Assembly (NCBI RefSeq): GCF_001425685.1
Contig: NZ_LMCY01000062.1
Coordinates: forward strand, 35,927-99,926
DNA length: 64,000 nucleotides
DNA from: Massilia sp. Root335
GTDB taxonomy: Bacteria > Pseudomonadota > Gammaproteobacteria > Burkholderiales > Burkholderiaceae_D
Direction of reading: 5' to 3'
Below the pieces are notes generated by a model, which was not told the origin of the DNA, did no database searches, and saw nothing but the letters and a program-made list of their open reading frames with translations. The position numbers and the translations under genes were made by a program. Shown piece by piece: positions 1 to 38,733 of the stretch (positions are counted from its first letter, which is position 1; the number at the start of each line of letters is the position of its first letter).

Positions 1-202
1 CGCCCAGTTCCCCGTAGCACACATGGCGCTTGCCGTGGCTGACCGCCACCGCCTGCGGACGCCGGATCACCCATTGCTCGAACTTGTCGTGCAGGTTGCC
101 GTTCGCCGCATGGCGTCGTGCGCGCGCCAGCTCCATGAGGCGCTCGCGCTGCTGCGGGCTGAGTGCGTCGAGCGGGTTCGGGGTGCTGTTCTGTTCTTTC
201 AT
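1..202 (-). CDS. NRPS, N-terminal start of an adenylation domain (partial, runs off the left edge)
   Basis: Only the first 67 codons are inside the window. The protein starts MKEQNSTPNPLDALSPQQRE and, from about residue 39, reads like the first motif of an NRPS adenylation domain (DKFEQWVIRRPQAVAVSHG, then a TYxEL-like CYGELG). There is no condensation domain before it. The preceding gene ends in a condensation domain without an A domain, so the two proteins probably form one split module (C on one protein, A-T on the next). A good ribosome site (AAGAGGTG) lies just before the ATG and the gap to the upstream stop is about 20 bp, so this is the next gene of the same operon. The substrate cannot be read because the specificity region is outside the window. 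Confidence 0.85.
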   Translation of the reverse strand, partial: MKEQNSTPNPLDALSPQQRERLMELARARRHAANGNLHDKFEQWVIRRPQAVAVSHGKRHVCYGELG

Positions 203-222: not shown

Positions 223-3200
223 TCAAATGTTGTCCAGTTCGTCCAGGAGGGCGAGCAGGTGTTCGTCGTCGAGATCCGCGCCGCCGTCCGCGGGGCCGGC
301 AGCCTCGTCGAGCGCGTCGTCGAGGCTGGCGACCAGGCCGTCGGCCAGGCCGGGCATGGCGGCCAGCAGGCGCACCACGTGGCGGACGATGCGTTCGCTT
401 TGGGCGGCCGAGAATTCGCCGCTCTGGTACATCAGCTTGACCGTCATGCCGTCGCCCGGCATGAACACCAGGGTCAGGCCGGTGCCGGTGCTTTCCTGGC
501 TGTGCAAGCCGGTCATGCGCAGCGTCGCCTGGGCATCGCGGATGCTGTCGACCGGATAGTTTTCGTACACGAGCGTGGTGTTGAACAGCTCGGCGCGCGT
601 GCCGAAGGGCGACTGCGCCAGGATGTCGGGCAGCTGCAGGAACCCATGGTTCTGCCACTCGAGCTGCTGGTGGTGGGCGTCGCGCAGCCATTGGCGCAGC
701 GGCTGGCCGGCGTCGACCTCCAGCGTGACGGGCAAGGTATTGATGAACGGTCCGACGGTGGCGTCGGCCCCGGCCAGCTGGGCCGGGCGGCCCGAGTTGA
801 CGGAACCGAAGCACACGCGTCCCAGCCCCGTGTACGTGTGCAGCACGTAGGCCCAGGCGCATTGCACCAGACTGTAGGGCGTCACCCCGACGGTGCGGGC
901 CAGCGCCTCGAGCCGCGCCGTTTGATCGGCCTCGAGCTTGAGCTGGACCTGGGCCGGCTGCGAGGACGGGGCATGGCGCACGTCGGGCGCGATGATGCAG
1001 GGGGCTTCCTGCGGCGCCAGGCGGGCGCGCCAGTACGCCTTGGCGCCGGCCTCGTCCTGCTTGCCGAGCCATTGCACGTAATTCTTGAACGTCCGCGCCG
1101 CGGGTTCGCCGCGCAGCTCGCCGCCCGCGTAGCTGTCCAGCAAGGAGCGGAATACCAGCGGCACGCTCCAGCCGTCGATGATGGCGTGGTGGGTCGTCCA
1201 CAGCACCCGGTGGCAGCCCGGCGTGAGGCGCCACACGGCGACCCGGCTCAGGGGCGCCTGCGCCATGTCGAAGCCGCGCCCGCGGTCGGCCCCGGTGAAC
1301 TGTGCGATGACGGCTTCCTGCTCGGTCGGCGGCAGCGCCGCCAGGTCTTCGTAGAAGAACGGCAGCGTCACGCTCTCCGGCGCCATCTGCAGCTGGGCGA
1401 TGCCGCCCTGGCGCGGCACGACGAAGGCGGTGCGGAACACGTCGTGCCGGTGCGGCAGGGTTTCCCATGCATGCTGCAGGCGCGGAAGATCGAGTTCGCC
1501 TTCGATGTCGAAGATGAGCTGGTTGACGAAGGCCGCGTTGTGCCCGGCGCTGTCGCGCATCGAGCGGAACAGCATGCCCTGCTGCGATCCGGTGGCCGGA
1601 TACGCGTCGCGCATGGCCGGCCACCGCAACTGCCATTGATCGAGCTCGGCCTGGTCGGTCGCCAGCGGCGCGACGTCGCTCGGGGTCAGCCCGGTGAGCG
1701 GCCGTTCCTGCCAGCAGCCGACCAGTTCGGCGAGGGCGCGCTCGAAGGCGCCGGCCAGCGCGGCGATGCGGGCGCCATCCACGTGGCGCCGGTTGTACTT
1801 GATGGAAAAGCGCAGCCGCCCGCCGGAGACCAAACCGTCGAAGGCCAGCGGCGCGGCGCGGCGGCGGCGCGGCGAGACGTTGTCGCCCGACGCTTCCGGC
1901 GCCGGCGCGAACAGGGCGCCGGCGCCGACCACCTGGTCGAACTGGCCGAGATAGTTGAACATCACCGCGCCGGCGCGGAACGCGCTGTCGTCGAGCCCGG
2001 TCGCGGGCCGGGCCAGGTGCTTGAGCGCACCGAAGTGTTCGCCCTTGGCCGGCACCCGGCGCAGCACCTCCTTGGTGTCGCGCAGCAGCGCGGCCGGGTC
2101 GCCCTCGACGCCGCCGAACAGGACCGGGTACATGGCCGTGAACCACCCGACGGTGTCGCCGATGTCGAGCACGTCGCCGAGCGCGGCGCGCCCGTGGCCC
2201 TCCATCAGCACGGCCAGCGGCGCCTGGCCGCGCCAGTCGTCGAAGGCCAGGCGCAGCGCGGCCAGCAACACCTCGTCCACGTTCATGCGGTAAGCCCGTC
2301 CGCAGCCGGCCAGCAGCTGCTCGGTCAGCGCCTGCGGCAGCACCACGGTGGTCGAGCCTTCGTCGGCCACGAGGTCGTCCTCGTCCGGGCCGCGGTCCGG
2401 GGCCGCCGGGGCGGCCGCCAGCACCGCCTGCCAGTACGGCAGCTCGGCCAGCATGGCCGGCGTGCCGGCCAGGTCGCGCAACGCGTCGACGGCGCGCTGG
2501 AAGGTGGCGGGCCGGGCCGGCAGCGTGACCGGCTGGCCGGCCGCGGCCTGGCGGTAGCCCGTTTCCACGTCCTGCAACAAGGCGCGCCATGAGACGCCGT
2601 CGACCACGAGGTGATGGGCCACGATCAGGAGGCGCGCGCCGCCGTCGGGCAGCGCGAAGTGCGCGAACTTCAGCAACGGGCCTTCCAGCGACAGCGAACG
2701 CTGGACGCGGTTCGCCTCGCGCAGGAAGGCGTCGGCCGGCGCGGGGTCGGCGGCGTCGATGACGACCCGGCACACGCCGGCGGCCGGCGCCACGTCCGCC
2801 GGCGCGCGGTAGTGCGCGCTCCAGCCGTCGCCGTCGCGCACGAAGCACAGGCGCAGCGCGTCGTGGCGCGCGTGCAGCGCGGCCAGTACCGGTTCGATCA
2901 GCGCGGGATCGAATCCGGGGCCGACGTCGAGCAGTACCGACTGGTTGAAGTGATGCGGGTCCGGGCTGCCGTCGGCGAGCAGTTCGCGCTGCATCGGATG
3001 CAGCAGTTGCGCGCCATGCGCCGGGCGGGCATCCGCTTCCGGGTGCTCGACGACTTCCATCAGGCGCGCCATCGCCTCGACGGTCGGTTCGGCATAGAAA
3101 TCCTTGACCGAGAACTTCAGCCCTTCGCGGCCCAGGTGGGCGCTGAGCTTGAGCAGCAGGATCGAATCGGCGCCGAGCGAAAAGAAATCCTGGTCGATCG

Positions 3201-6200
3201 ACGGCGGGGCAATCTGGAGCACCGTGCACCAGGCGTCGAGGACCCGCTGCTCCATCGCGTTGCCCGGCAACTTGCGCGGCGCCGCGTGGCCGGCCGCTGC
3301 CTGCGCCAGCGCCGCCAGGTCGGGACGGCCGTCCGGCAGGCGCGGGATCTGCGCCAGCGCCAGCACGGCGTGCGGCGGCACGGCCGCGGGGAGCACGTCC
3401 GCGAGGAACCGGCGCGCCGCATCCGCATCGGGCGCCGCCGCGCCGGGCACCGGGACGGCATAGGCGACGAGGCGCTGGTCGACGATCCGTACCACCGCTT
3501 CCGCAATGGCCGGATGCTGCGCCAGCGCGGCCTCGATCGGCGCCAGCGCGATCGGGTAGCCGTGCAGCAGGGCGAGGTCGTCGAGCGCGCCGAGCATCTC
3601 GAGCCGGCCGTCCGCGCGCCAGCGCGCGCACTGGCCCGTGCCCGCCGTGCGCCCATCGGGCCCGCTCACATGCAGTTCGCCGTGCACGCCGATCGGCGCC
3701 GGCATGCCGGCCCGGTCGAGCACCTGGCGCCCGGCGCCATCCGCGTCCTGCCACCGGTCGAGCAGGACGCGCTCCGCGCCGGCGACGATGTCGAAGCCGA
3801 GCACGGGACGGTCGGCGCCGTCCGGCAGGGCGGCCAGCAGCGCTTCCAGCTGGTCGGCCATGCGTTCGATGGTCGCCGGCTCGAACAGGTCGGTGTCGTA
3901 GTACCAGTTGGCGAACAGGCCGTCGGGCGATTCGGCCATGATCAGGGTCAGGTCGACCTTGGCGGCGACGGTTTCCTCGACGCGTTCGAGTTCGAGTCCG
4001 TCGATCGACAGCGTGCCGCGCTCGTAGTTCTGCAGCGCGAACAGGACCTGGAACAACGGCGCATGGCTGCGCGAGCGCGCCGGCGCCAGCTCCTCGACCA
4101 GCATCTCGAACGGCACGTGCTGGTGTTCGAACGCGGACAAGGCCATCCGGCGCGTCTGGTCCAGCAGCTGGGCAAAGCTCGGATTGGCCGACAGGTCGGT
4201 GCGCAGCAGCAGGGTGTTGACGAAGAAGCCGATCAGCGGTTCGAGCGGCTTGTGCATGCGTCCCGCGATCGGCGTGCCCATCACGATATCGTCGCTGTTG
4301 CCCAGGCGTCCCAGCAGCAGCGCGAACGCGGCCTGCAAGGTCATGAACAGCGTGGCGCGGTGCGCCTGGCTGAAGGCCTGCAGGCGCGCCAGCAGTTGCG
4401 GCGCCAGGGTGCGCTTGAGCAGCGCGCCGGCATGCCTGGACACGGCCGCGCGCGGCTTGTCGAGCGGCAGGCTGTGGACCGCCGGGATGCCGGCCAGGCG
4501 CGCGCGCCAGAAGTCGAGCTCCTGCTCGAGCAGCGGCCCGACCAGCCAGTTGCGTTGCCACGCGGCGAAGTCGGCGTACTGCAGCGACAGGGGCGCGAGC
4601 GCCGGCTCGGTGCCGGATGCCAGCGCGCGATAGAGTTCGGCGAACTCCTTGACCAGGATGACTTCGGACCAGCCGTCCGAGACGATATGGTGGGCGTTGA
4701 ACAGCAACAGGTGCTGGCGCTCGGCGAGACGGACCAGCGTCACGCGCAGCGGCAGTTCGGCCGTCAGGTCGAACGCGCGCCGGGCGTCGGCGTCCACCAG
4801 CGCGCGCTGGCGTCCGGCGCGCTCGCCGGCCGGCAGCGCCGCCAGGTCGAGGCGGGCGATCGGGACCGGCTGAGGCGGACGGATGACCTGCAGGGCTTCG
4901 CCGTCGGTTTCGCAGAACACGGTGCGCAGCGACTCGTGGCGCGCCACCAGGCGGTCGAGCGCGCCCTGCAGGGCGTCGAGGTTCAGCGCGCCGTTGAGGA
5001 TGAAGGGCGCCGGCATGTTGTACTGGGCGCTGCCGCCGCCGAGGCGGTCGATCATCCACAGCCGGCGCTGCTGGAACGACATCGGGATCGGCGCGCCGCG
5101 GTCGGCCGCCACCAGCGCCGGATAGCGCGCGCTGCCCGTGTCGGCCTGTTCGACCAGGCGCGCCAGCGCGGCGACGGTGGGGTCTTCGAACAGTGCGTGC
5201 ATCGCGATGTCGGCGCCGAACGCCTCGCGCACGTCGGCCAGCACGCGGGTGGCCAGCAGCGAATGCCCGCCCAGGTCGAAGAAATTGTCGTCCGCGCCGA
5301 TGCGATCGAGCTTGAAAATGGCGCACCACAGCGCGGCGAGACGTTGCTCGGTGTCGCCGCGGGGCGCCACGAACGGCGTGGACAGGTCGGGGCGGGGATG
5401 GCAGATCGTGCGCGGCGCCGGAGCAGGTACATCGTGCGCCGCGGCCGGCGCCTGCCGCGTGCCGGCGACCTGGTCGTACACGGTGGGTGCGAAGGCATAG
5501 GTCGGCAGCGCGATGAACGGGCCCTCGATGTCGGCCGACACGGCGTCCCAGCGCAGGCTGGCGCCGTCGGCGTACAGGTGGCCGAGCGCGCGCAGCAGGA
5601 AGGCGTCGTCGGCGTCGTCCTGGCGCGGGTGGCGCACGGCCTGCAGGCACAGGTGGCTGTCGTCGCAATCCTCGTGACTGCGCACGAACGTGGCGAGCGC
5701 GTTGCCCGGACCGATTTCGACGAAGGTGTGCGGGCCTTGCCGCTGCAGGGCGCCGATGGCGTCGGCGAAGCGTACCGCGCCGCGCAGGTGGCGGCACCAG
5801 TAGGCCGGATCGAGCGCGTCGGCTTCGGTGACGGGCGCGCCGGACAGGTTCGACATGAAGGGGCGCCGCGGCGCCCGGCGCGGCGTGGCGTCGACCGCGG
5901 CGCGGAACTCGGCCAGGACCCCGTCCATCATGCGCGAGTGATAGGCATGCGACGTCTTCAGGCGGGTGCAGGCGACGCCGTCGGCCGCCAGGCGGGCCTC
6001 GAGCGCGGCGATGGCCGGCAGCGGTCCGCTGACCACCGTCAGGGCCGAACTGTTGACGGCCGCCAGGTCGAGGCTGTCGCCGAGCCAGGCGCCGATGGCC
6101 GATTCCGGCAGCCGCACGCTGAGCATCGCGCCCGGCTCGGCGCCCGCCATCAGGCGCCCGCGCCGGCACACCAGCGCGAGGGCGTCGGGCAGCGTGAACA

Positions 6201-8097
6201 CGTCCGCCAGGCAGGCCGCGACGAACTCGCCCAGGCTGTGCCCGATCATCATCGCCGGTTCCACGCCCCAGCCCATGAGGGTGCGGGCCAGCGCGTATTC
6301 GACGATGAACAGCAGGGGCTGCGCCAGCGCGGTATCGGCGGCTTCGGCATGCCGGTCGCCGGCCGGATCGGCCAGCAGCAGGTCGCGCACGCGGGCGGAC
6401 AGGGCCGGCTCGAGCAGCGCCAGGCAGGCGTCCACGTGCGCGCGGTACTGCGGCTCGCGCGCATACAGCTGGCGCGTCATGCCCGGGTATTGCGCACCCT
6501 GGCCGCTGAACATGAAGACGACGGGGCGCTGCCGCGGCGCCGGCGCGGCGGCGCCGTTCGCGACGTCGTCGAGCTGCGCCAGCAATTGTTCGCGCGTGGC
6601 GGCCACCAGCGGCCGGCGCACGGCGAAGTGGCGGCGCGCCTGCTGCAGCGTGCGCGCCACCGCGTCGAGCGACGGCGCCCCGGCGCCGAGCGCGCGGCGC
6701 AGCTTCGCGGCGTAGCGGCGCAACGCCTGCGGGTCGCGTGCGGACAGCGGCACCAGGCGATGGCGGCCGGCGTCGGCCGAGGCCGCGCGCCGCTCCACGT
6801 ATTGTTCGACGATGGCGTGGGCGTTGGTGCCGCCCACGCCGAAGGCGCTCACGCCGGCACGCAGCGGGCGCGCGGGTTGCTCGAGCGGGGTGAGCGCAGT
6901 GTTGACGGCGAAGCCGCCGCGTTCGAATGCGATCAGCGGATTCGGCCGCGCGTAGTGCAGGGACGGCGGCAGCACCCCGTGGCGGACCGCCAGCACGGCC
7001 TTGATGAAGCCCATGATCCCGGCGGCGGCGTCGAGGTGGCCGATATTCGACTTGACCGAGCCGATCAGGCATGGCGCCGCGCCGTCGCGCGCGCCGTAGG
7101 CCTGGCCCAGCGCCTCGACTTCGATCGGGTCGCCGATGCGCGTCGCGGTGCCGTGGCATTCGACGAAATCGATGTCGCCGGACGCGACTTGCGCCAGGTC
7201 CAGCGCGCTGCGGATGACCCGGCTCTGGCCCGCCACCGACGGCGCGGTGTAGCCGACCTTGTCGTTGCCGTCGTTGTTGATGGCCGACGCCTTGAGCACC
7301 GCGTGGATCGGATTGCCGTCGGCGATCGCATCGTCCAGGCGCTTGAGCGCCACGATGCCCACGCCCTGGCCCGGCACGGTGCCGTTGGCCTGCGCGTCGA
7401 ACGCGCGGCAGTGGCCGTCCGGCGACTGGATCATGCCTTCGTGGTAGGCATAGCCCTTGACCACGGGCGACACGCACACGCCGCCGGCCAGCGCCACGTC
7501 GCAGTCGCCGCTGAGCAGTCCCTGGGCCGCCATGTGCAGCGCGACCAGCGACGTCGAGCAGGTGCTGTCGATGCCGATCGCCGGCCCCTTGAGGTTCAGC
7601 CGATACGACACGCGGGTGGGAAAGAACTCGCGCTGGTACAGCATCTTGAGGTCGTAGATCTCGCCGATCTTGTCGCCCACGTGCTGCGCCACCGCGCGCA
7701 GCCAGTTCATGTTCTGGCTCGAGCCGGCATACAGGCCGATGGCGCCGGCGGCCAGTTGCGGGTCGCAGCCGCCCGCCTCGAGCGCCTCCCAGCAGCACTC
7801 GTGCAGCAGGCGCAGCTGCGGGTCCATGAATTCGGCTTCGCGCGCCTTGTAGTCGAAGAAGTCGGCGTCGAACCCAAACCGTTCGTCGAGGCAGCCGGCG
7901 GCCTTGACGTAGGCCGGGTTGGCGATATCGGCCTCCGGCACGCCGTACTCGCGCAGGGTGTCGTCGTCGAAGAACCGGATCAGTTCCTCGCCGCGGCACA
8001 GGTGGCCGAAGAATTCCTCGGTGTCGGCCGCGCGCGGCAGCCGGAGCGCCATGCCGACCACGGCGATTTCGAGTCCGGTCGTATGGGTCTGTTTCAT
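223..8097 (-). CDS. Hybrid PKS-NRPS: KS-AT-T-C-(A remnant)-T-E-C
   Basis: 2624 residues. Domains in order: ketosynthase (about 10-430, active Cys in DSTCSTSL near 180, then ECHGTAT and SNIGHLDAAAG); acyltransferase (about 520-840, GHSLGE near 620, SHAYHS fits malonyl-CoA); carrier domain (LGGHSL near 944); condensation domain (HHIVSDGWS near 1137); an adenylation remnant (about 1436-1600); carrier domain with LGADSI near 1645; epimerization domain (HHLVVDG near 1829, then EGHGR and GWFTAMYPV); final condensation domain (HHAIIDGWS near 2306). There is no ketoreductase, so the ketide unit should stay a beta-ketone. The A remnant keeps only a degenerate C-terminal lobe; all motifs that bind ATP and the amino acid are gone, and the invariant lysine region reads LPDGRPDLAAL. 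The unit loaded on the second carrier must come from elsewhere, although the E domain implies a D-residue. The start overlaps the upstream stop by 4 bp (ATGA). Confidence 0.95.
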   Translation of the reverse strand: MKQTHTTGLEIAVVGMALRLPRAADTEEFFGHLCRGEELIRFFDDDTLREYGVPEADIANPAYVKAAGCLDERFGFDADFFDYKAREAEFMDPQLRLLHECCWEALEAGGCDPQLAAGAIGLYAGSSQNMNWLRAVAQHVGDKIGEIYDLKMLYQREFFPTRVSYRLNLKGPAIGIDSTCSTSLVALHMAAQGLLSGDCDVALAGGVCVSPVVKGYAYHEGMIQSPDGHCRAFDAQANGTVPGQGVGIVALKRLDDAIADGNPIHAVLKASAINNDGNDKVGYTAPSVAGQSRVIRSALDLAQVASGDIDFVECHGTATRIGDPIEVEALGQAYGARDGAAPCLIGSVKSNIGHLDAAAGIMGFIKAVLAVRHGVLPPSLHYARPNPLIAFERGGFAVNTALTPLEQPARPLRAGVSAFGVGGTNAHAIVEQYVERRAASADAGRHRLVPLSARDPQALRRYAAKLRRALGAGAPSLDAVARTLQQARRHFAVRRPLVAATREQLLAQLDDVANGAAAPAPRQRPVVFMFSGQGAQYPGMTRQLYAREPQYRAHVDACLALLEPALSARVRDLLLADPAGDRHAEAADTALAQPLLFIVEYALARTLMGWGVEPAMMIGHSLGEFVAACLADVFTLPDALALVCRRGRLMAGAEPGAMLSVRLPESAIGAWLGDSLDLAAVNSSALTVVSGPLPAIAALEARLAADGVACTRLKTSHAYHSRMMDGVLAEFRAAVDATPRRAPRRPFMSNLSGAPVTEADALDPAYWCRHLRGAVRFADAIGALQRQGPHTFVEIGPGNALATFVRSHEDCDDSHLCLQAVRHPRQDDADDAFLLRALGHLYADGASLRWDAVSADIEGPFIALPTYAFAPTVYDQVAGTRQAPAAAHDVPAPAPRTICHPRPDLSTPFVAPRGDTEQRLAALWCAIFKLDRIGADDNFFDLGGHSLLATRVLADVREAFGADIAMHALFEDPTVAALARLVEQADTGSARYPALVAADRGAPIPMSFQQRRLWMIDRLGGGSAQYNMPAPFILNGALNLDALQGALDRLVARHESLRTVFCETDGEALQVIRPPQPVPIARLDLAALPAGERAGRQRALVDADARRAFDLTAELPLRVTLVRLAERQHLLLFNAHHIVSDGWSEVILVKEFAELYRALASGTEPALAPLSLQYADFAAWQRNWLVGPLLEQELDFWRARLAGIPAVHSLPLDKPRAAVSRHAGALLKRTLAPQLLARLQAFSQAHRATLFMTLQAAFALLLGRLGNSDDIVMGTPIAGRMHKPLEPLIGFFVNTLLLRTDLSANPSFAQLLDQTRRMALSAFEHQHVPFEMLVEELAPARSRSHAPLFQVLFALQNYERGTLSIDGLELERVEETVAAKVDLTLIMAESPDGLFANWYYDTDLFEPATIERMADQLEALLAALPDGADRPVLGFDIVAGAERVLLDRWQDADGAGRQVLDRAGMPAPIGVHGELHVSGPDGRTAGTGQCARWRADGRLEMLGALDDLALLHGYPIALAPIEAALAQHPAIAEAVVRIVDQRLVAYAVPVPGAAAPDADAARRFLADVLPAAVPPHAVLALAQIPRLPDGRPDLAALAQAAAGHAAPRKLPGNAMEQRVLDAWCTVLQIAPPSIDQDFFSLGADSILLLKLSAHLGREGLKFSVKDFYAEPTVEAMARLMEVVEHPEADARPAHGAQLLHPMQRELLADGSPDPHHFNQSVLLDVGPGFDPALIEPVLAALHARHDALRLCFVRDGDGWSAHYRAPADVAPAAGVCRVVIDAADPAPADAFLREANRVQRSLSLEGPLLKFAHFALPDGGARLLIVAHHLVVDGVSWRALLQDVETGYRQAAAGQPVTLPARPATFQRAVDALRDLAGTPAMLAELPYWQAVLAAAPAAPDRGPDEDDLVADEGSTTVVLPQALTEQLLAGCGRAYRMNVDEVLLAALRLAFDDWRGQAPLAVLMEGHGRAALGDVLDIGDTVGWFTAMYPVLFGGVEGDPAALLRDTKEVLRRVPAKGEHFGALKHLARPATGLDDSAFRAGAVMFNYLGQFDQVVGAGALFAPAPEASGDNVSPRRRRAAPLAFDGLVSGGRLRFSIKYNRRHVDGARIAALAGAFERALAELVGCWQERPLTGLTPSDVAPLATDQAELDQWQLRWPAMRDAYPATGSQQGMLFRSMRDSAGHNAAFVNQLIFDIEGELDLPRLQHAWETLPHRHDVFRTAFVVPRQGGIAQLQMAPESVTLPFFYEDLAALPPTEQEAVIAQFTGADRGRGFDMAQAPLSRVAVWRLTPGCHRVLWTTHHAIIDGWSVPLVFRSLLDSYAGGELRGEPAARTFKNYVQWLGKQDEAGAKAYWRARLAPQEAPCIIAPDVRHAPSSQPAQVQLKLEADQTARLEALARTVGVTPYSLVQCAWAYVLHTYTGLGRVCFGSVNSGRPAQLAGADATVGPFINTLPVTLEVDAGQPLRQWLRDAHHQQLEWQNHGFLQLPDILAQSPFGTRAELFNTTLVYENYPVDSIRDAQATLRMTGLHSQESTGTGLTLVFMPGDGMTVKLMYQSGEFSAAQSERIVRHVVRLLAAMPGLADGLVASLDDALDEAAGPADGGADLDDEHLLALLDELDNI

Positions 8098-11000
8098 CGT
8101 GCACCTCGTTGTGCCAAGCGCGCCGCCAGGCGGCTCTTGCTGCGTTTCGGAAGATCGGTCTCGGCCGCCGCGTGGCGGCTGCGTTCGTTGATGTGGGCCG
8201 CCATGGCGCGCACGGTCGGATGCTCGAAATAGCTCACCACGCTCAGGTCCTGCTCGAGCACCAGGTTGGCCTTGCTGGCGATTTCGATCAGGTGCACCGA
8301 ACTGCCGCCCAGGTCGAAGAAATTGCGCTCGACGCTGATCCGGTCGCGCCCCAGCACTTGCCGCCAGATGTCGGCCAGCGCCGTTTCGACGGGGCCCTCG
8401 GGCGCGATGACGATGTCGTCGTCGCGGTTCCAGACGGGCGGCGGCAACTGCTTGCGGTCGACCTTGTTGTTGGGCGACAGCGGGAACGCATCGAGCACCA
8501 CGTAATAGGCGGGCACCATGTAGTTGGGCAGCAGCGACGCGAGGTGCAGGCGCAGGCGCGCGCCGAGCGCGGCGGCGTCTTCCTGCCCGTCGGCATCGAG
8601 TTGGACGTACGCCACCAGCTGTTGTATGCCGGTCGCGTCCTTCAGCACCATCACCACTGCGTCGGCCACTCCGGCGGCACGGGTGAGTGCCGCCTCGATG
8701 TCGCCCAGCTCGATCCGGAAGCCGCGCAGCTTGACTTGCAAGTCCTTGCGGCCGATAAATTCAATATTCCCGTCGGGGAGGTAGCGCCCGAGGTCGCCCG
8801 TCTTGTAGACGCGGTCGTGCAGCGCGTCGTGCACGACGAAGCTGGCGGCGGTACGCTCGGCGTCGCCGTAATAGCAGCGCGCCACGCCGATGCCGCCGAT
8901 GTGCAGTTCGCCCACCACGCCCACCGGACAGGGCACGAGGTCGTCGGTGAGCACATAGAACGCCTGGTTCGCGAGCGGCTTGCCGTAAGGGACGCTCTTG
9001 CGTTCGCCCATGTCCGACACGATCGGATAGCTGATCGACCACACCGAGCCTTCGGTCGCGCCGCCCAGGCTGTGCATGGCCACGCCCGGGAAGACGGCGG
9101 CGATGCGGGCCGGCAGGGTCGGCGCGATCCAGTCCCCGCTCATCATCAGCACCCGCAATGCGCCGCCGCCGCGGCGCGCGCGCCATTCGTACTGGGCGGT
9201 CAGCAGCTCGGCCGAGGCCGGCACGGAGTCCCACAGGCTGATGCGCTCGCGCTCGACCAGCCCGGCCCAGTGCGCCGGGTCCTTCTGGCGCGCTTCGTCC
9301 GGGAACACCACGCGTCCGCCGGCCGCGAGCAGGCCGAACATGTCGTAGACCGACAGGTCGAACGACAGCGCCGACACGGCCAGCACGGCGTCGTCCGGTC
9401 CCACGCGGTAGCGCTGGTTGATGTCGAGGCAGGTATTCACCGCCGACCGGTGCTCGATCGCCACGCCCTTGGGCTTGCCCGTGGAGCCGGACGTGAAGAT
9501 CACGTAGGCCAGGCTGGACGGTGCCTGCACGCTGGCGAAGCCCGCGAGCGCGGCCGCCGCGGCGTCCGGCGCCAGCGGCGCCTGCGCCGCCGGGTCGATC
9601 CGGACGGCGCCGTGCGTGATGCCTTCGGCCAGCGCCGCGCCGGCCAGCAGCACGCGTGCGTTGCCATGTTCCAGCACCTGGTCGATGCGCGCCGCCGGCC
9701 AGCCCGTGTCGAGCGGCAGGTAGGCGGCGCCCGCCATCATGATGGCCAGGGCGGCCGCCAGCTGCAGGCGGCCCTTGGGCAGCAGGATCGCCATCAGCGT
9801 TTCCGGTTCGGCCGCGTGCGGACGCAGGCGCGCCGCCAGCGCCGCGGCATGCGCGAACAGCTCGCCGTACGTCTGGCTGCCATGCTCGTCGACGACCGCG
9901 ATCGCGTCCGGCGTGGCCCGCGCCTGCGCCACGAACAGGTCGTGCAGACACTGTTCGTACGGCAGCGCCATGGCGGTGTCGTTCCACTGGCGCAGCATCT
10001 TGTCGGCCTCGGCCGGCGGCAGCAGGTTCAGCGCCTGCAGGCGGGTCGCGCCGGACGCGACGACCGTGTGCAGGATCTGTTCGTAGGCGTCCGCCATGCG
10101 CGCGATCGTCGCCGCGTCGAACAGGTCGGTGTTGTAGGTCCAGGTCAGCTCCAGGCCGCCGGCGCGTTCGTTCGCATTGAGCAGCAGGTCGAACTTGGCC
10201 ATCACCACGTTGCGCTCGACCGGGCGCATCGCCAGCGACGGCAGCGCGAACGCCGTCTGTTCCTGGCTCTGCAGCACGAACATGATCTGGAACAGCGCCG
10301 GATGGCTCAGGCTGCGTTCGGGCTTGAGCGCGTCGACGAGCATCTCGAACGGCACGGCCTGGTGCTCGAAAGCCTCCAGCACGGTGCCGCGGGTGCGGGC
10401 CAGCATGTCGTCGAAGCTCGGGTTGCCCGCCAGGTCGCTGCGCAGCACCAGGGTGTTGAGGAAGCAGCCGATCAGTCCTTCCAGGCTTTGTTGCGAGCGC
10501 CCGGCCGCCGGGGTGCCGATCACGATGTCGTGCTCGTTGCTCCAGCGCGCCAGCAGGGCCGCCAGCACCGTCTGCAGGGTCATGAACAGCGTCGCGTCGC
10601 GCTTGCGGGAATACTCCTTGAGCGAGGCGAGCAGGCCGGACGGCACCTGGCGGGTGAGCAGCGCGCCGTTGTAGGTCTGGCGGACCGGGCGGGGCTTGTC
10701 GAGCGGCAGGCTGTGCACCTGGGGCACGCCTTGCAGCCGGCGCTGCCAGTACGCGGTGTCCGCCGCCAGCACGTCGTCGGCGAGGGTATGGCGTTGCCAG
10801 TGCGCGAAATCGGCGTACTGGATGGGCAAGGGTGCGAACGCCGGCGTGCCGCCCTCGGCGAAGGCGCGGTACGCCTGGACGAATTCGGTCGTCAGCAGGT
10901 TGATCGACCAGCCGTCGGAAGCAATGTGGTGCATGTTGAACATCAGCACGTGGCGCTCGGGCGCCAGGCGCAGCACCTGCGCGCGCAGCATCAGGTCGGC

Positions 11001-14000
11001 GCCGAGGTCGAACGGCGCGGTGGCGTCGGCGCGCAGCAGGCGCTCGACTTCGGCGGCGCGGGCGGGCGGCGCCAGGTGCGACAGGTCGGTCAGCCCGACC
11101 GCCACGTCGGCGGCGGGCTGCACGCACTGGACCGCATGGCCGTCGCGTTCGGCGTACGTGGTGCGCAGCACCGCATGCCGCGCGACGATCGCCGTCAGGC
11201 TGCGGCGGCAGGCGTCGAGGTCGAAGCGGCCGGCCAGCTCGAAAGCGGCCGGCATGTTGTACTGGACGCTGGCGCCTTCGAGACGGTCGATCAGCCACAG
11301 GCGATGCTGCGCGAACGACAACGGCAGGTCGGCGCCGGCGGCCAGCGGCACGATCGGCGGCAGCGCGCGCCCGCGCGGCATGGCGTCGAGGACCTGGGCG
11401 AGCTGGGCGATGGTCGGGCCGGCGAAGAAGGTGGCCAGCGCCAGTTCGGCCCCGAGCCGTTCGCGGATCGCGCTGATGACGCGGATCGCCAGCAGCGAAT
11501 GGCCGCCCAGCGCGAAGAAGTTGGCGTGGACCGACAGGCCGCTCTTGCCGAGGATCGTGCTCCAGATGGCCTCGAGCGCATGTTCCGTGGCCGTTTGCGC
11601 GCCCCGGCTGCGTTCTTCCTGCCCATCCTGTGGCGGCGCCGGCAGGGCGCGGACGTCGAGCTTGCCGCTGGCCGTCAGCGGCAGCGCCGGCATCTCGACG
11701 AACGCCGCGGGCAGCATGTATTCCGGCAGGCTGATGCGGCAGTGCGCCGCCAGCTCGTCCGCGCCCACCGCCGCGCCATGGGCGACGACGTAGGCCAGCA
11801 GCGACTCGCCGTCCGGCGCCGGCACGACGGCCGCCTCGGCGACGCCCGGGTGCGCGGCGAGCACTTCTTCGATTTCGCCGGGCTCGATGCGGTAGCCGCG
11901 CAGCTTGACCTGGGCATCGCTCCGGTACAGGTAGGCCAGGGTGCCGTCGGGACGCCAGCGCACCATGTCGCCGGAGCGGTAGAAGCGTTCGCTCCCGTCC
12001 GCACCCGGCAGGGCGATGAATTTGTCGGCGTCGAGTTCCGGCCGGTTCAGGTAGCCGCGCGCCACGCCGGGACCGCCGATGCAGCATTCGCCGATGGCGC
12101 CGGGCGGCACTTCCTGCAGGCGGGCGTCGAGGACCCTGACCTTCACGCCCGCCAGCGGCCGGCCGATATGCGGCACCGTGCCGGCCTCGATGCGCGCCCA
12201 GGTGGCGTCGACCGTCGTTTCGGTGGGGCCGTAGACGTTGATGGCGACCCGGCCGGCGCGCGCCATCGCGGCGGCGATGCCGTCCCACAGCGCGCCGTTG
12301 ATCGGTTCGCCGCCGACGAGCAGGTGCGGCAGGGCGCGCGGACGGCGCGCGTCTTCCTGCAGCACGAGTTCGAGCAGGCTCGGGGTGCCGTCGAGCATGT
12401 CGATGCCGTGCAGCCGCATGTAGTCGAGCAGCAGCGCCGGCGACGTGCGCAGGTGTTCGGACAGGATGTGCAGTTCGCCGCCCGCGCCCAGCTGGGCCAC
12501 CGCCTGCAGGGAGGCATCGAACACGAGCGGCGCGTTCCAGGCCCAGCGCAGCGCTTCCGGCACGCCGTTTGCGCGCAGCATCAGCGCCAGTGCCTGGCCC
12601 AGGTGGCTCAGGCTGTCGTGCTGCACCATGACGCCTTTCGGGCGTCCGCTGCTGCCCGACGTGTACAGCACATAGGCCAGCGCGGCGGGCTGCGCCAGGT
12701 CGGGCGCATCGCCGTAGCCGGCCAGCCAGTCGTCGTCGGCGGCGGCGCCGTCGAGGAACATCAGGTCGATGGCCGGCAGGTCGAAGCGTTCGAGCGTCTG
12801 GCGGGTGCCGAGCACCATGGTGGCGCCGGTGTCGGCCACGATGAAGGACTGGCGCGCCGCCGGGGCCTGCGGGTCGATCGGCACATAGGCCGCGCCGGCC
12901 TGCCAGATGCCGAGCACGGCGATGAGTTGCTCGGCCGAGCGCGGGCAGCAGATGCCGACCCGGTCGCCCGGCGCGATCCCTTGCTCGGCCAGGCAGCTCG
13001 CCAGGCGCCCGGCACGGGCGGCCAGTTGGCCGTAGCTGAGCACGGCGTCGCCGCTGCGCACCGCCACGCGTTCGGGGTGGCGCAGCGCGGCGTCGCGGAA
13101 CTGGCGCAGCATGGTGTCGCGCGGCGCCGGCAGCGTGACCGGGCAGGCGTAGCCGGCCAGGCGCGCGCGCTGTTGTTCTCCGACCAGGTTCAGCGCGCCG
13201 ACGGCAGCGCCGGCACCGCCGGCCAGCGCATCGAGCAGCACCCCGAAGCTGTCGGACCAGGCACCGATGGTGGCGTCGTCGAACAGGTCGCGGTTGTAGA
13301 CCCAGTTGAAGTCGATCGCGCCGTCGCGCTCGGTCGCGCTGAGCATCAGGTCGAACTTGGCCGCGACCTCGTCGCGCGCGACTTCGGTGATGGCCAGGCC
13401 CGGCAGGTCGAGCTTGCCCACTTCCATGTTCTGCAGCACGAACCAGAGCTGGAACAGCGGCAGATGGCTGGCGCTGCGCGGCGGATTCAATTCCTCGACC
13501 AGCAGGTCGAACGGCAGCGCCTGGTGTTCGAACGCGTCGAGCACCATGGCGCGGCTGGCGCCGAGATACTGCTCGACCGTGGCGTCGGGCTCGATGCGGT
13601 TCCTCAGCACGACCGTGTTGACGAAGCAGCCGACGAGGGCGTCGAGTTCCGGCCGGTCGCGCCCGGCGACCGGCGTGCCGACGACGACCTCGGCTTCGCC
13701 GCTCACGCGCGCCAGCAGCAGCGCGTAGCAGGCCTGCAGCAGCATGAACAGCGACATCTCGTGGCGCCGCGCCAGCGCGTTCAGCGTGCGCGTCAGCGCG
13801 GGTTCCGCGCGGGTGCGGATGACGGCGCCGCGGGTGGTGATGCGCGCCGGGCGCGGGCGGTCGAGCGGGAGCCCATGCAGCTGCGGCAGCTGGTCCAGCT
13901 GGCCGCGCCAGTAGCCGGCCAGCGCGGCGTAGCGATCGGGCGCCAGTTGCGCGCGCTGCCATTGCGCGTAGTCGGCATACTGGACCGGCAGCGGCGCCAG

Positions 14001-17000
14001 CGCCGCGGCGCCGCTGCCGCAGGCCGCGCGGTAGAGCGCACCCAGGTCGCGGATCAGGACCCCGACGGACCAGCCGTCGGAGGCGATGTGGTGCATGTTG
14101 AACAGCATCCGGTAGGCGCACGCGTCCATGCGCACCAGCGTGATCCGGAATACCGGGCCCGCGGCCAGGTCGAAATCGGCGTGGGCCTGCGCCAGCAGGC
14201 GTTCGGCGGCGGTGACGGCTCGTTGCGTGGCCGGCAGCGCGCGCAGGTCGTGGTAATCGATGGTGCTGTCGACGACGGGCGCGATGACCTGGACGGCGGC
14301 GCCGTCGACTTCGCGATACGTGGTGCGCAGCACTTCATGGCGCTGCACCAGCGCGTCGACGGCCGACTGCAGGGCCGGCACGTCGAGTTCGCCGTCGAGG
14401 TCGAAGCAGGCCGGCATGTTGTACTGGTTGCTGCGGCCCTCGACGCGGTCGATGAACCACAGCCGCTGCTGGGCGTACGAGGCGGCGAGGACGCCGTTGC
14501 GGTCGGCGCGCGCCAGCGGGGCCGGGCCGCCGCCGGCCTGCTGCGTCGCCAGCCATTGCGCCAGTGCGCGCACGGTCCCGAGCTGGAACAACTGGCGGAT
14601 CGGCAGCGCGTGGCCGGTGGCCGCCTGCAGCGCGCTCGCCATCCGGATCGCCAGCAGCGAATTGCCGCCCAGGTCGAAGAAATTGTCTTCGGCGCCGATC
14701 TGCTCGCGCTGCAGGATCTTGCACCAGACCGCGGCCAGGGTTTGTTCCAGCGCGCCTTCGGGCGCCACGTAGGCCTGGGCGATATAGTCGGATGCGGCCG
14801 GCGCCGGCAGGGCGCGCTTGTCGACCTTGCCGTTGGCCGTCACGGGCATCGCGTCCAGCGCGACGAAGGCCGCCGGCACCATGAAGCGCGGCAGTTGCTC
14901 CTGCGCGTGGGTGCGCAAGGCGGCGCCCAGTTGCGCGCCGCCGCCGCCGGGGCTGAAGTAGGCGACGAGCTGGTGCGCGTCGCGGATCACGACGCACGCT
15001 TCGCGGACGCCCTCGAACGCCAGCAGGCAGCGTTCGATTTCGCCGAGCTCGATCCGGTAGCCGCGGATCTTGACCTGCTGGTCGGCACGGCCCAGGAATT
15101 GCAGGACGCCGTCGCGCTGCCAGCGCACCAGGTCGCCGGTGTGATAGAGCAGGCGGCCGCTGCCGGCGTCGCGGACGAATTTTTCCGCCGTCAGCGCGGG
15201 GTCGTTCCAGTAGCCCAGTGCCACGCCCGCGCCGGCCGCGCACAGTTCGCCGATGGCGCCGACCGGCAAGGCCTGGCCGCGCGCGTCGAGCACGAGCACG
15301 TCGGTGCCGGCCACCGGGCGGCCGATCGGGACCGGGCGCCCGGCCGGCCAGTCGCGGCCGATCGGATGGCACGCCGTGAACGTGGTGTTTTCGGTCGGGC
15401 CGTAGCCGTTGACGATGGCGACCTGGTCCAGCTTCTCGTACAGGCGGCGCACGATCGCCGGCGACACGACCTCGCCGCCGGTGAGCACGTGGCGCAACCT
15501 CGGCAGCGGACGGTCGAGCTGCTCGACCCATTGCTCGAACAGGGCGGTCGTCAGCCACATGGCATTGACCCGTTCGCGTTCGATGAAGGCGGTCAGCTCC
15601 GCCAGGTCGAGCACGCCGTCGGGATAGATCGCCAGCGTGCCGCCGTTCAGCAGCGGGCCCCAGATTTCCAGCGTCGACGCATCGAAGCCGACGGTGGCCA
15701 GCTGCAGCATGACGGTGCCCGCGTCGAGCGGCATGAAGTTGGCATTGCGCACCAGGCGCAGGATCGCGCGCGTCGGGATCGCCACGCCCTTGGGCGCGCC
15801 GGTGGAGCCGGACGTGTACATCAGGTAGGCCAGCCGTTCGGCATCGGCGGGCGGCGGCGCGAACGCGGCCGGCGCACCCGCGCGCAGGGCGTCGAGCGTG
15901 ATGGCGGCGCTCGGGCTGCCGTCCAGGCGCTCCAGCAGCTTGCCGTCCGCCACCAGCAGGCGCGCGCCGCTGGCGCCGAGAATCTGGACGATGCGCTGCA
16001 CGGGATAGTTGGCGTCGAGCGGCACATAGGCGGCGCCCAGGCGCACGATGCCCAGCAGGCAGGCGATCAGGTCGGTGCCGCGCGGCAGGTACAGCGCGAC
16101 CCGGTCCGCCGCCGTCACCCCCTGGCCCGCGAGGCGCGCCGCGATCGCGCCCGCATCCCGGTCGAGCTCGGCATAGGTGACGCGCCGCTTGCCCGCGGCG
16201 AGGGCGATGCCGTCCGGGTTGCGCGCCGCTTCGCGCGCGAAGCACGCATACAGCGATTCGTCGCAGGCGCCCGCATCCGGGCCGTGCGCGTAGGCCGCGA
16301 AGAAGGCGTGGTCGGCGCCGGTCAGCAGGTTCAGCTCGCCGATCGGCCGGGTGGGCTCGGCCAGCAGGGCGTCGAGCATGGCGGTGAACTGGTCGGCCAT
16401 CGCCGCGATGGTGGCCTCTTCGAACAGCGCGCTGGCGTATTGCCACTCGAGGCGGATGCCTGCGTCCGACTCGACCGCCGACAGCATCAGGTCGAACTTG
16501 GCATCGACATGGTCGCGTTCGACGCGCGTGACCTCGACGTCGGCCAGCTCCATGCGCTTCGATTCGGCTTCCTTGAGACTGAACACGATCTGGAACAACG
16601 GATGGTGCGCCAGGCTGCGTTCCGGGTTGAGCATGTCGACCAGCAGCTCGAACGGATAATGCTGCTGGCCGAACGCGCGGCTCACCAGCGCATGCGACTG
16701 CGCCAGGTAGCCTGGTGCCGGTTGCGAGAAATCGATGGTGTGGCGCAGCGCGATCAGGTTGGCGAACAGCCCGACGACGGGTTCGGTGTCGCCGTGGATG
16801 CGCCCGGACACCGGCGTGCCGATCACGACGTCGGCGCTGGCCGACAGGCGCGCGATGAACGACGCGAACAGGCTTTCCAGCGCGATGAACAGCGTGGTGC
16901 CGGCTTCGCGCGCCAGGCGCCGCAGGCCGTCGCGCTGGCCGGCATCCAGGTGGGCGACGATCTCGGCGCCGGCGTGGTCGGCGATGGCCGGGCGCGTCTT

Positions 17001-20000
17001 GTCGGTCATCAGCCCGTGCACCGGCGGCGCGTCGCGCAGCTGGTCGCGCCAGAACGCGGCGGCGTGCGCCATCTGGCCGTTGTCGACGAGGGCGCGCTGC
17101 CATTCGGCGTAGTCGCTGTAGGCGATCGCCAGCGGCGGGAGGGCGGCGGCGGCGCCGGCCTTGCGGGCGGCGTACAGCTGGCGCAGTTCGCGCATCAGGA
17201 CGCCGATCGACCAGCCGTCACAGGCGATATGGTGGATATTCAGCACCAGCAGCGCCTCGTCCTCGTCCAGCAGGAGCAGGGTGGCGCGCAGCAGGCGGCC
17301 GGCGGCCAGGTCGAAGCGGTGGACGGCTTCGTCGCGCATGTGTTGCCGGACCCGGGCCGCGCGCGCCGCGCCGTCCAGCGCGCACAGGTCGTCGACCCGG
17401 GCGTCGAGCGTCCAGGCCGGGTCGGCGTGCTGGCGCACGTCGCCGCCGGCGTCGGTGAAGCGCGTGCGCAGCGCCGCATGGCGGTGGCCGAGCTGCTCCA
17501 GGCAACCGAGCAGTGCATCCTGGTCGAGACTGCCGCGCAGGCGGTAGGTGGCCACCATGTTGTAGTGGGCGCTGCCCTGCTCGATGCGGTCGATCAGCCA
17601 CATCTGCTGCTGGCCGCACGACAGGCGCGCGCCCGCGGCGTCCGTGCGCGCTTCGATCGCGGGCAGCGTGGCGGCGGCATCGGCGCGCGCCTCGTCGATG
17701 CAGCGCGCCAGGTCGGCCAGCACCGGGTGCGCGAAGATGGTGTCGAGCGCGAGCCCGGACCACACGCGGCTGCGCACGCGGTTGAGCATGCGGGTGGCGA
17801 GCAGCGAGTGCCCGCCGATGTCGAAGAAATTGTCGGTGCGCGCGACGTGCGGACGCGCCAGCAGTTCGGACCAGATCGCCTGCAGCGCCGCTTCCGAAGC
17901 GCTGGGCGCCGGCGCGGCGTCGTCCTGGCCGGTCGCCGGCGCCGGCAGCGCGGCCGCGTCGGGCGTGCCGTCGGCCAGCAGCGGCAGCGCGGCGACATTG
18001 ACCACCGTCCTGGGCAGCAGGAAGTGCGGCAGGCGCAGGCGCAGTTGCCGCATCAGCGCGTCGGACGCCGCGCCGGACACCACGTACGCGACGAGGGCGC
18101 CGTCGGCGCCGGCGGCCGGGTCGAACACGACCGCCGCGGCCGCGACGTCCGGCAGCGCGCGCAACGCGCTTTCGGTCCGGCGCGGATCGACTTCGAAGCC
18201 GCGCCACATGAGGCGCTGGTCGGTGCGGCCGCCGAAGAGCAGGGCGCCGTGATGGTCGATCCGCACGCGCAGGCCGGTGCGCACCGCACGCGCCGCCGCG
18301 GCGGACCCGTCCAGCGCGACGAACCGGCCGTGCGCCGGCGGCATGCCGGCGTAGCCGTCGGCGATGCCGGGGCCGGCAACGACCAGCTCGCCCCACGCGC
18401 CGGCGGGTGCCGGCGCGTCGCCTTGCAGGACCAGCAGGCGCGCGCCGCCGATGGCATGGCCGAGGCCTGGTGCGGGACCGTCGTGCGCCAGGCACGCAAT
18501 GCCGCTCTCGAGCGGGCCGTGGAGGGCGACGACGCGGCAGGCGCCGACGACCGGCAACGGGGCGGCCGGATCGTGGCCGGCCAGGAACAGGACGGCGCGC
18601 GGCGCGGCTGCGAGTCCGGCGCGCAAGGCGTCGCACTGGGCCGGCGTGGCTTGCATGACGTCGACCGCGCCGTGCGGCAGCGGTTGCAGCGTGCCCGCGC
18701 CCGCGAGGGCGAGCAGCAGCATGGTGTTGAAGAAGCCGAGGCCGGCCACCGGCGCATAGCCGTACACGAGGCCGGGCGCCAGCGCGCAGCGTTGTCCAAG
18801 GGCGTCCGCGTAATGGGCCAGCTGGCCGTGCGTGAACGTCACGGGCAGGCCGTCGGCGCCGGGGAGCAGGGCCGCGGGGGCGTCCGGCGTCGGCGGCGCG
18901 TCCGTGGCGATGCCGGCGTAGTCGTCCAGCCAGTCGTCGTCCTCGATGCCTTGCAACAGCACCAGTTCCAGGTCGTGCAGTTCGAGCCCGTCGGCGCAGC
19001 CGGCGCTGGCCAGCAGCAGGTGCAGGCCGGCCTGCTGTCCGGGAGCCGCACCGGCGGCGACCGGCACGCATACGGCGGCGAGCTTCCACGTCGCCAGCGT
19101 GGCGACGAGCGCTTCGGCGCCGCAGCCGGCGCAGATGCCGACGCGGCTGCCCGGCAGTACGCCCAGTTCGCCCAGCAGCGCGGCGAGGCGGTCGGCGCGC
19201 TCGTCGGCGCCGGCACAGGTCATGGCGCCGATGGCCGCGGCGTCCGGACGGCGCGCGACCGACTGGCGCCAGGCGACGGGCAGCAGGGTGGCCGCGCGGG
19301 CCTCGGCGGCCAGGACCGGCGCCGCATCGAACGCGACGTGCGACAGCGGCAGGTCCGGCGCGCCGCATGCCGTGTGCAGCAGCCGGTCGAAATGCCCGGC
19401 GAAGCGCGCGATGGTGGCCGCCTCGAACAGGCCGCGGTCATATTCCCAGGTCAGGCGCAGCTGCCCGTTCTGGTGCTCCACCTCGAGCTTCAGGTCGTAG
19501 CGGCCCTGCGTGCGTTCGATGGCGCGCACGTCGGCCGCGAGGTCGTGCAGCGCGAGCGTGTCGGCGCGGCCTTCGTGCATCGAGAACCACAGCTGGTACA
19601 GCGGCGAGAACGCGAGGTTGCGCTCGACCTTGAGCTCGTCGACCAGCATGTCGAACGGCACGTCCTGGTGGGTCAGCACGAAGCCCAGGCTGGTCCTGGT
19701 GGCGGCGATCGCCTCGCGCAGGGTGTAATCCTGCGGCAGGCGGTTGCGCAGCACGACGGTATTCGAAAAATAGCCCGTCACCGCCTCGAATTCGCTGCGT
19801 TGGCGGTTGGCGGCCGGCATGCCGAACACCACGTCGGGCTCGTTGCCCAGCTTGTGCAGCAGGATCGAATAGAACGCCGCCATCACGCCGAACAGCGTGG
19901 TGTGCTCGGCCTTCGCCAGCGCCGCCAGCGCGGCGGCCAGCGTGCCGTCGAGCGCGTAGTCGAGGCGTTCGACGCCGGCGCGCGGCGCGGCCAGGCGGTC

Positions 20001-33905: not shown

Positions 33906-33948
33906 ACGCAGCGCCGCGCCGGTGGCGACGCCGGCGCGGGCATGGAGC

Positions 33949-37938: not shown

Positions 37939-38733
37939 TCAGGTCCAGTAAACGTATTCGGAAGAGGACATTTGCGCGACAAAACAGTTGATGACCACCC
38001 TTTTGCTGCGCGTGCTGGTGACGGCATGGATATATTTGCCGTTAATGATCGCCATGTCGCTCGTTTCGACGGCAAGCTCGATATAAGTCTTATTCTCCAG
38101 CAAATCCAGCGGATAGGGATAACCATTGCCCTGCAGTTCCAGCCGGTCGCGCGTGGAGGTATCCGGAATGTAGTCGTAGATTCGCAAGCGGCCCGAGACA
38201 GCGTCCGCGCTCGCATAGAAATTAATCGCCATGACATTCTTGGCGTCGCGCACTTCCCAGCCTTCGTTGCGACTGCAGTCGATTTGCGAAAAGTCCTCGT
38301 GCGGGCGCAGCAGGAATTCGCTCGTGACCGATAAATCGGGAAGCCATTCCACCGCGCGGGCATGCAGGGCTTCCCGATCGCCGAGCCGGGAAGGGCGAAT
38401 GGAGCGCCGTGTTTTCTCGTTGATCGCCCGATGCACGAGCCTCATCGGATCGACCGTATTCTCGAAAATGCTGCTGACGGAGGCACGGGCTTCCGAGCAT
38501 TGCATGAAATATTCGGCCGGCGTCTTGCTGTAGTGGGTCGCGCCAAGTATATAACCCGGAACGTTATCGGGGCGGCGCCGGCGGTGTTCGGACCCGAAGA
38601 AGTTTTTTTGAATGGCGATACAGTCGGCAGGCGGCACGACGTTCTTGACCAATGCGACGTCCAGCTCATCGGAGCTGATCATCGATATCGCATCGCCGAT
38701 GCACTCGGCGCCTACAAATTTTCTGTATTTCAC
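37939..38733 (-). CDS. 2-oxoglutarate/Fe(II) oxygenase-like protein beside the lanthipeptide genes
   Basis: 264 residues from a GTG start at 38733, chosen because AAGGGACGAG lies just before it; the frame is open to another GTG at 38763 with no ribosome site. The pattern fits a prolyl-hydroxylase-like double-stranded beta-helix enzyme: LLRPHEDFSQ gives an HxD metal pair (His145, Asp147), MAINFYAS and GRLRIYDYIP follow as core strands, and NGKYIHAVT gives the distal His236 with Arg245 after it for the 2-oxoglutarate carboxylate. Such enzymes usually hydroxylate a carbon. It is on the same strand as the precursor peptide, 404 bp upstream of it, and I infer it modifies that peptide. It is not close to the TauD-type enzyme in the NRPS operon. 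The exact family name is not certain. Confidence 0.7.
   Translation of the reverse strand: MKYRKFVGAECIGDAISMISSDELDVALVKNVVPPADCIAIQKNFFGSEHRRRRPDNVPGYILGATHYSKTPAEYFMQCSEARASVSSIFENTVDPMRLVHRAINEKTRRSIRPSRLGDREALHARAVEWLPDLSVTSEFLLRPHEDFSQIDCSRNEGWEVRDAKNVMAINFYASADAVSGRLRIYDYIPDTSTRDRLELQGNGYPYPLDLLENKTYIELAVETSDMAIINGKYIHAVTSTRSKRVVINCFVAQMSSSEYVYWT

Follow-up and report, generated by a model that had tools for sequence, protein, structure and literature searches.

A hybrid PKS-NRPS module of Massilia that has lost its adenylation core, and a neighbouring free-standing adenylation gene that may load it

How can a module of a non-ribosomal assembly line contribute a residue once the domain that should activate this residue is gone? 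The question is raised by gene gC of Massilia sp. Root335, which lies in a window of 64,000 nucleotides (C62:35927-99926, the whole stretch of DNA that was analysed) of a 7.1-Mb draft genome, and whose second module possesses a C and a T domain without a functional A domain. An earlier note had described this module as having lost its A domain while keeping its carrier and E domain, and it is indeed a complete C domain and a complete T-E pair that flank a remnant consisting of the Asub only. On the minus strand, the order of genes is penicillin-amidase family gene, gA, TauD-type dioxygenase, gB, gC, gD, gE, ABC transporter and gF (Table 1); gA, gB, gC and gF, as well as gE past its N run, are open frames with codon positions of the coding type. 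The top solved matches of the gC E domain are PvdL, tyrocidine synthase 1, bacitracin synthase 3 and gramicidin S synthase 1, and the C domain at the end of gC is expected, judging by a motif, to belong to the D-residue-accepting class. An MbtH-like gene was matched only once in the whole genome, on contig C3, and not in the NRPS cluster.

Table 1. Features of the assembly line and of the gC module without an A core (positions are those of the window unless preceded by C62; A°, eroded A domain)
Feature	Position	Strand	Remarks
gD, A only	C62:36128-34497	minus	first 202 bases are window 1..202; crosses a short N run
gC, hybrid PKS-NRPS, KS-AT-T-C-A°-T-E-C	223..8097	minus	2624 aa
C-terminal condensation domain of gC	388..1587	minus	HHAIIDGWS intact
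Epimerization domain of gC	1708..2997	minus	carries HHLVVDG, EGHGR and FNYLGQ
Carrier (T) domain of the A-less module	3058..3267	minus	LGADS with Ser; 71% identical to ortholog
A-domain remnant	3292..3723	minus	residues 1459-1602; spans A6-A10 only, lacks catalytic residues, Asub fold predicted
Second deletion junction	3660..3661	minus	after residue 1479; 26 aa missing between A6 and A7
First deletion junction	3723..3724	minus	after residue 1458; 331 aa of ortholog (A1-A5) missing
C domain upstream of remnant	3781..5088	minus	residues 1004-1439; HHxxxDG intact
gB, NRPS, C-A°-T-C-A-T-C-A-T-C-A-T	8094..20852	minus	4252 aa
Second dead A domain, gB first module	17913..19355 (with T 17706-19355)	minus	nearly full length
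TauD-family dioxygenase of the cluster	20890..21852	minus	
gA, NRPS, C-A-T-C-A-T	21862..28227	minus	2121 aa
Penicillin-amidase family protein	28333..30708	minus	weak PvdQ match, far under that model's cut-off
gE, A-T-C-A-T	from C62:34453	minus	beyond window
gF, C-A-T-C-A-[eroded]-A-T-TE	C62:18020-27490	minus	beyond window

What exactly is left of the A domain? With Pfam models, the Condensation match of gC extends to residue 1439 and is followed, in the A region, by AMP-binding_C alone (1521-1586; 24.1 bits, slightly short of the cut-off of 24.5), the AMP-binding domain being found nowhere in the protein, and neither Pfam nor profiles built from the cluster's own domains detect an AMP-binding core or a KR in gC. 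The cluster-domain profiles place an Asub at 1481-1599 (55 bits), between the complete C and the complete T-E, and recognise only 23 positions from the very end of the core (321-343 of 349; 8.7 bits). Solved structures are likewise matched by the remnant in the C-terminal parts of their A domains (phmmer, best E 5.4e-18). As a yardstick we took the 77 columns whose conservation among 38 reference A domains is 90% or higher. The references themselves keep a median of 75 and a minimum of 69; the cluster's other A domains, with the exception of the first one in gB, keep 62-76, including gE-A1 with 66 (6 absent), whereas in the gC remnant 41 columns are absent, 14 changed and only 22 kept. Hence the degenerate C-terminal lobe that the earlier note had recognised is what remains, i.e. 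A6-A10 (residues 1459-1602) without catalytic residues: the A7 Asp is replaced by Gln, an A8 Arg by His, and the invariant A10 Lys, as the note had said, by Arg.

Despite these losses the remnant is predicted to fold. In AlphaFold models of C-A°-T and A°-T (mean pLDDT 74.4 and 76.0, respectively; below 50 for the first 35 residues of the latter, around the deletion), the remnant resembles the Asub of CytC1 in fold (3vnr; Z 14.0, 1.5 A over 95 residues), and the T domain superimposes on the TycA PCP-E (78 residues at 1.2 A, Z 14.2; 9bfg), so that the models portray a putative pseudo-Asub, with the Asub fold and without the adenylation residues. Keto-acid depsipeptide synthetases contain a split pseudo-Asub that flanks an intact A domain and a ketoreductase. 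The gC module resembles them in retaining a non-catalytic Asub-like sequence, and differs from them in having neither an A core nor a KR. An AMP-binding_C match ahead of the A core was also seen in a C-A-KR-T gene elsewhere (L048 on G258:C5, frame 10765-18999, residues 1174-1243), an arrangement that we take to be that of the split pseudo-Asub of keto-acid modules. For an A remnant reduced to its Asub, no earlier report was found in titles and abstracts on truncated, degenerate or remnant A domains, nor did the literature searched contain a description of a pseudo-Asub. According to a review (PMC8150014), it is the movement of the Asub that carries the T domain in normal modules; the kept Asub may therefore hold the T domain of gC mobile and properly spaced from the C domain.

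That an A domain once stood here is indicated by a relative from another family of the same order (genome G544), whose gC ortholog is 63% identical and carries at this very position a full A domain (71 of 77 conserved columns, complete catalytic set); a comparison with homologous clusters had been suggested in the earlier note. The gene order is the same: a 799-aa gene, C-A-T-C-A-T, a 329-aa gene, the gB ortholog (4311 aa), KS-AT-T-C-A-T-E-C and A-T-C-A-T, where location and length assign the 799-aa gene to the place of the acylase and the 329-aa gene to that of TauD; further downstream of gE the two clusters diverge. Relative to this ortholog, the roughly 350 residues reported missing in the note prove to be an accurate figure, because the loss amounts to 331 plus 26 residues, the A1-A5 motifs lying within the 331 that only the ortholog possesses. 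The loss of the A-core residues thus stands, but not as the single deletion implied by the note, for the second, smaller one lies between A6 and A7. Both are in frame, while the other gaps in the compared domains amount to 1-3 residues.

The remaining domains of gC have not diverged evenly. Identity with the ortholog is 81.5% for the KS, 67.4% for the AT, 63.9% for the first T and 70.0% for the first C domain, and then 49.7% for the remnant, 71.4% for T2, 53.5% for the E domain and 57.8% for the last C domain. T2 is accordingly the second-best conserved domain of gC, behind the KS; the T2-E span contains a single gap of one residue, and the T2 Ser and the motifs of the T, E and last C domains are present in both species. 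The remnant is looser than the corresponding parts of the gB A domains, for in the three that are intact the Asub shows 61.5, 61.6 and 73.4% identity with its counterpart. The ratio of changes at third to second codon positions is 1.66 for the E domain and 1.67 for the Asub part of the remnant. The low identity of the E domain is a point against strong constraint acting on it. As to the residue originally used, the G544 A domain has the code DSPLIAEVWK, one letter away from DSALIAEVWK, given in the available text of PMC12283262 as a His code that accepts beta-OH modification; the A domain that was lost in cis was thus probably His-selecting.

How widespread is this arrangement? Across 399 genomes of the order, the sole strong match fell in G544 (G544:C9:699929-700561, 54% identical), in the other family, and only four genomes, the source genome and G544 among them, reached E <=1e-30; within the genus of G544, the ortholog occurs in one of seven genomes, namely G544 itself. 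No ortholog was found in 195 genomes of the family (closest hit in any other genome E 2.3e-30, 38%) or in 62 of the genus (best other match E 3.4e-27, 38%), and the KS-AT stretch reached at best 49% identity elsewhere in 392 family genomes, in searches that scored the best 12, up to 39 and 2 candidates per genome, respectively, and may therefore miss orthologs. The order KS-AT-T-C-(A)-T-E-C was not seen in any of the eight candidate regions read out. A scan of genome contigs returned at least six loci, at most 39% identical among the matches listed, and a plasmid search matched 226 records, none covering more than 80% of the query. Two long matches in genome G148 proved to be ordinary full A domains.

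Where, then, could the missing activity come from? A stand-alone A gene, which the earlier note had proposed to look for, does exist: gD starts at window position 202, only 20 bp after gC, for which reason just 202 of its bases fall within the window. It ends shortly past A10 without a T domain, and gE begins 43 bp later. In G544, by contrast, gC and gE are spaced by 15 bp, leaving no room for a stand-alone A gene between them. The motifs of gD are complete wherever readable (an N run hides about a dozen residues): of the 75 conserved columns that it covers (2 of the 77 being absent), gD retains 71, and of 14 catalytic positions 13, the exception being an A8 Arg replaced by His. By sequence, gD is a lineage-specific tandem duplicate of gE-A1, with which it shares 79-80% of amino acids and 87.5% of nucleotides, the two being 66% (gD) and 70% (gE-A1) identical to the relative's A1; the best match to gD outside its own genome, among 392 genomes, is at most 56% identical. 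The N-termini of gD and gE are alike (LDALSPQQR.RL.ELAR), and could both dock on the acidic C-terminus of gC.

The region is interrupted by N runs, i.e. assembly gaps or masked letters, five of which, 2 to 42 letters long, occur up to base 99,926 of the contig. Two of them interrupt gD and gE at equivalent positions, and the window begins just after one, so that it is across N runs that we infer the joins of the gD and gE N-termini to their cores. Because there are two distinct N-termini and two distinct cores, and because the gD N-terminus is continuous with gC and the gE N-terminus with the gD stop, the tandem gD-gE is the sole linear order seen; the data would nonetheless accommodate additional identical copies.

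Has the copy kept the specificity of its parent? gE-A1 and its G544 ortholog have the common code DFWNIGMVHK, listed in the Thr/Dhb group in the available text of PMC12283262, and since they share it, the four differences in the gD code, DVWSVAMVHK, arose in gD. Eight of its ten letters agree with DFWSVGMVHK, which the same portion of PMC12283262 assigns to the Thr/Dhb group as well; DFWSVGMVHK and DFWNIGMVHK were found in print, whereas DVWSVAMVHK and seven further DVW variants were not. Between gD and gE-A1, four of nine pocket positions differ. For the domain as a whole the figure is 88 of 445, which gives p 0.081, and for the N-terminal core, a region picked afterwards, it is 29 of 256, giving p 0.011. 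Polarised by G544, 33 derived sites fall in gD and 18 in gE, with 41 unpolarised (p 0.049), and when the majority state among the 38 references is used instead, 27 departures belong to gD and 12 to gE, with 58 sites undecided; at sites more than 70% conserved in the references, there are three departures in gD vs four in gE. The dN/dS between gD and gE is 0.67, rising to 0.81 over the final quarter. The pattern would fit a copy with changed specificity and would fit relaxed constraint as well, although gD has preserved nearly all of the conserved columns that it covers (71 of 75).

Taken together, it seems fairly probable that gD loads the T domain of the second gC module in trans, that the module is still in use and that the remnant serves as a pseudo-Asub. 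The sequences show that the second module of gC has lost its adenylation core and that gD arose by tandem duplication of gE-A1, its binding pocket changing afterwards. In the proposed mechanism, gD would charge T2 in trans with a Thr-like residue, which would be epimerized by the E domain of gC and handed to the C-terminal C domain and then to gE, and the leftover piece of the A domain would persist as a folded, non-catalytic pseudo-Asub joining C to T. Trans loading is favoured because the loss is in frame relative to an ortholog with a complete A domain in a conserved gene order, and because gD is intact, adjacent to gC and absent from G544. The earlier note's view that the A domain is genuinely lost, with its amino acid supplied in trans or the unit skipped, thus gains support from both the full-A ortholog and the stand-alone gene. 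Its argument that the open frame indicates use, on the other hand, has been dropped: in this G+C-rich stretch (0.70-0.74), 133, 15 and 212 of 336 windows of 167 codons lack a stop in the three frames of the non-coding strand of gB and gC, and so an open frame is weak evidence here. Several observations speak against loading by gD, namely the dN/dS and the faster change of gD, the excess of pocket changes, which reaches p 0.011 only in the region picked afterwards, the N run within gD, the E domain, whose identity to the ortholog is little above that of the remnant, the location of the sole MbtH-like gene on another contig, and the persistence of the dead first A domain of gB with no obvious partner A in G544. 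The more far-reaching proposal of a natural cis-to-trans swap of a specificity domain between related species, in which a His-type core was excised, its pseudo-Asub kept and the same carrier taken over by a re-tuned Thr-type copy, thereby changing one residue of the product, is tentative, a possibility rather than the expected outcome.

The gB case just mentioned shows that gC is not alone. The first A domain of gB has lost its A3 loop and A10 Lys and keeps 45 of 77 conserved columns, against 43 in G544, next to an intact T domain (72.3% identical to its ortholog). As it is dead in G544 too, both families have retained a module whose A domain is dead; dead-A modules are thus tolerated, and perhaps cross-loaded, in this line, which weakens any simple one-to-one pairing. 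Such a pairing of orphan A and T domains had been considered, given, by our count, 11 amino-acid T domains vs 11 intact A domains in the line, with gD and gF-A2 as orphan A domains and gB-T1 and gC-T2 as orphan T domains; it was abandoned because the relative keeps the orphan gB-T1 without an orphan A among its mapped genes. In gF (residues 2053-2290), A2 has lost the T domain that should follow it, and the C domain after that is an eroded duplicate of the preceding one, 84% identical in nucleotides to this sister, with in-frame internal deletions of 39, 75 and 15 nt.

Could T2 be loaded in trans by some other A domain, be it gE-A1 (Thr) or gF-A2? The latter keeps 76 of 77 conserved columns, and is thus almost flawless, but no T domain follows it; cross-module loading is reported in the available text of PMC12400406 for CmnA-A1 and CmnI. 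Since the dead-A module of gB exists in both species, while in the mapped genes of the relative every A domain is followed by a T, some A domain in G544 may serve two T domains. We nevertheless consider this unlikely for T2, given that gD adjoins gC, stands alone and is present precisely in the line that lost the cis A domain, whereas gF-A2 is located three genes on (gD, gE and the ABC transporter lie between), inside a multidomain protein. Rather unlikely, too, is a module that is merely passed through, the chain moving from the PKS carrier to gE past an uncharged T2, even though the gB dead-A module shows that such modules persist, having survived in both families while the relative offers no obvious partner A, and the E domain is, the remnant aside, the least conserved domain of gC. 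Under such skipping, one would not anticipate that the T2 Ser and the motifs of the E and last C domains be present in both species, and an E domain followed by what appears, from a motif, to be a D-accepting C domain is sensible only if a residue is loaded.

Might the whole line be decaying, without any product, and gD be a mere by-product of tandem duplication? The three eroded places (A° of gB, A° of gC, and gF with its lost T and eroded C), the dN/dS of the eroded gF C domain (0.86) and the high dN/dS of gD point that way; they are opposed by the open, coding-type frames of gA, gB, gC, gF and gE (past its N run), by the deletions in gF (three) and gC (both), all of which are multiples of three, and by the well-conserved KS and T2, and we hold decay to be quite improbable. 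As for a collapse of similar A domains during assembly, which the earlier note had named as what would overturn its reading, the coincidence of N runs at the same point of the sister A domains suggests that repeats may have troubled the assembler at gD and gE. gC itself, however, contains no N; compared with the remaining contig sequence and 20 kb of C3, the junction region shares no identical stretch longer than 17 nt, vs 77 nt common to gD and gE; and the remnant is degenerate and scores highest (89.7 bits; next, 65.5) against the A domain in the corresponding position of the ortholog. A collapse is therefore very improbable and was rejected. Trans loading by gD thus emerges, with some confidence on our part, as the best-supported mechanism, ahead of loading by another A domain, skipping and decay.

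Several known systems bear similarities with this proposal. The WS9326A line, in the available text of PMC7539972, has an A-less C-PCP module and the free-standing A proteins Cal22Thr and Cal23Asn, for which knock-outs and in vitro adenylation are reported and which its authors term essential. It thus shares with the Massilia line an A-less module and downstream trans A genes, one of them Thr-selecting there; as far as that text describes, the gC module differs in retaining an Asub remnant and an E domain and in coming after a PKS module, and gD in being a recent copy of a neighbouring cis A domain, with an intact-A ortholog known. In capreomycin biosynthesis, CmnI, charged by CmnA-A1, is an A-less T domain served by the A domain of another protein, as proposed for gC, but there, according to PMC12400406, one A domain serves two T domains, unlike the dedicated extra A gene found here. 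The complementation of an inactive A domain by a separate gene, again as proposed for gC, is described for ramoplanin/enduracidin and for albicidin in a review (PMC8949500), where the partners are A-T didomains, whereas gD lacks a T domain; those of ramoplanin/enduracidin also bear a 300-residue N-terminal extension that gD does not have. Sib1 of S. pombe, too, contains a degenerate (second) A domain whose role is proposed to be taken by another; this is a fungal case in which an A domain of the same protein is reused, with no free-standing A (PMC2644324).

A-less modules with trans A domains are consequently already known, and what sets this case apart is the kept, putative pseudo-Asub together with visible before and after states. 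To our knowledge, the origin of A-less modules and of trans-acting A domains has mostly been deduced from end states. The orthologous lines offer both stages, the earlier one with an intact A domain and without a separate A gene, and the later one in which the core has been excised, the subdomain retained and a free A gene added, which makes the evolutionary route directly testable. If the proposal is true, it would represent a natural case of altering one residue of an assembly line from the outside, without rebuilding the module, and one in which collinear structure prediction fails, as the ortholog would suggest His at this position and gD a Thr-like residue.

Other genes surround the NRPS line. 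Beside it, at window positions 31707-37179, are a TonB-type receptor gene and a gene for a LanB-type lantibiotic dehydratase (1096 aa), which overlap by 17 bp if the start is taken as called by the ORF tool, and a LanC-like gene occurs on the opposite side of the line (C62:11555-12754). A small dioxygenase-like gene (window 37939-38763) has a weak match to the L-isoleucine dioxygenase HilA (84.8 bits, cut-off 500) and one, also under the cut-off, to the halogenase WelO5; its third-position G+C, 0.70, is below that of most neighbours.
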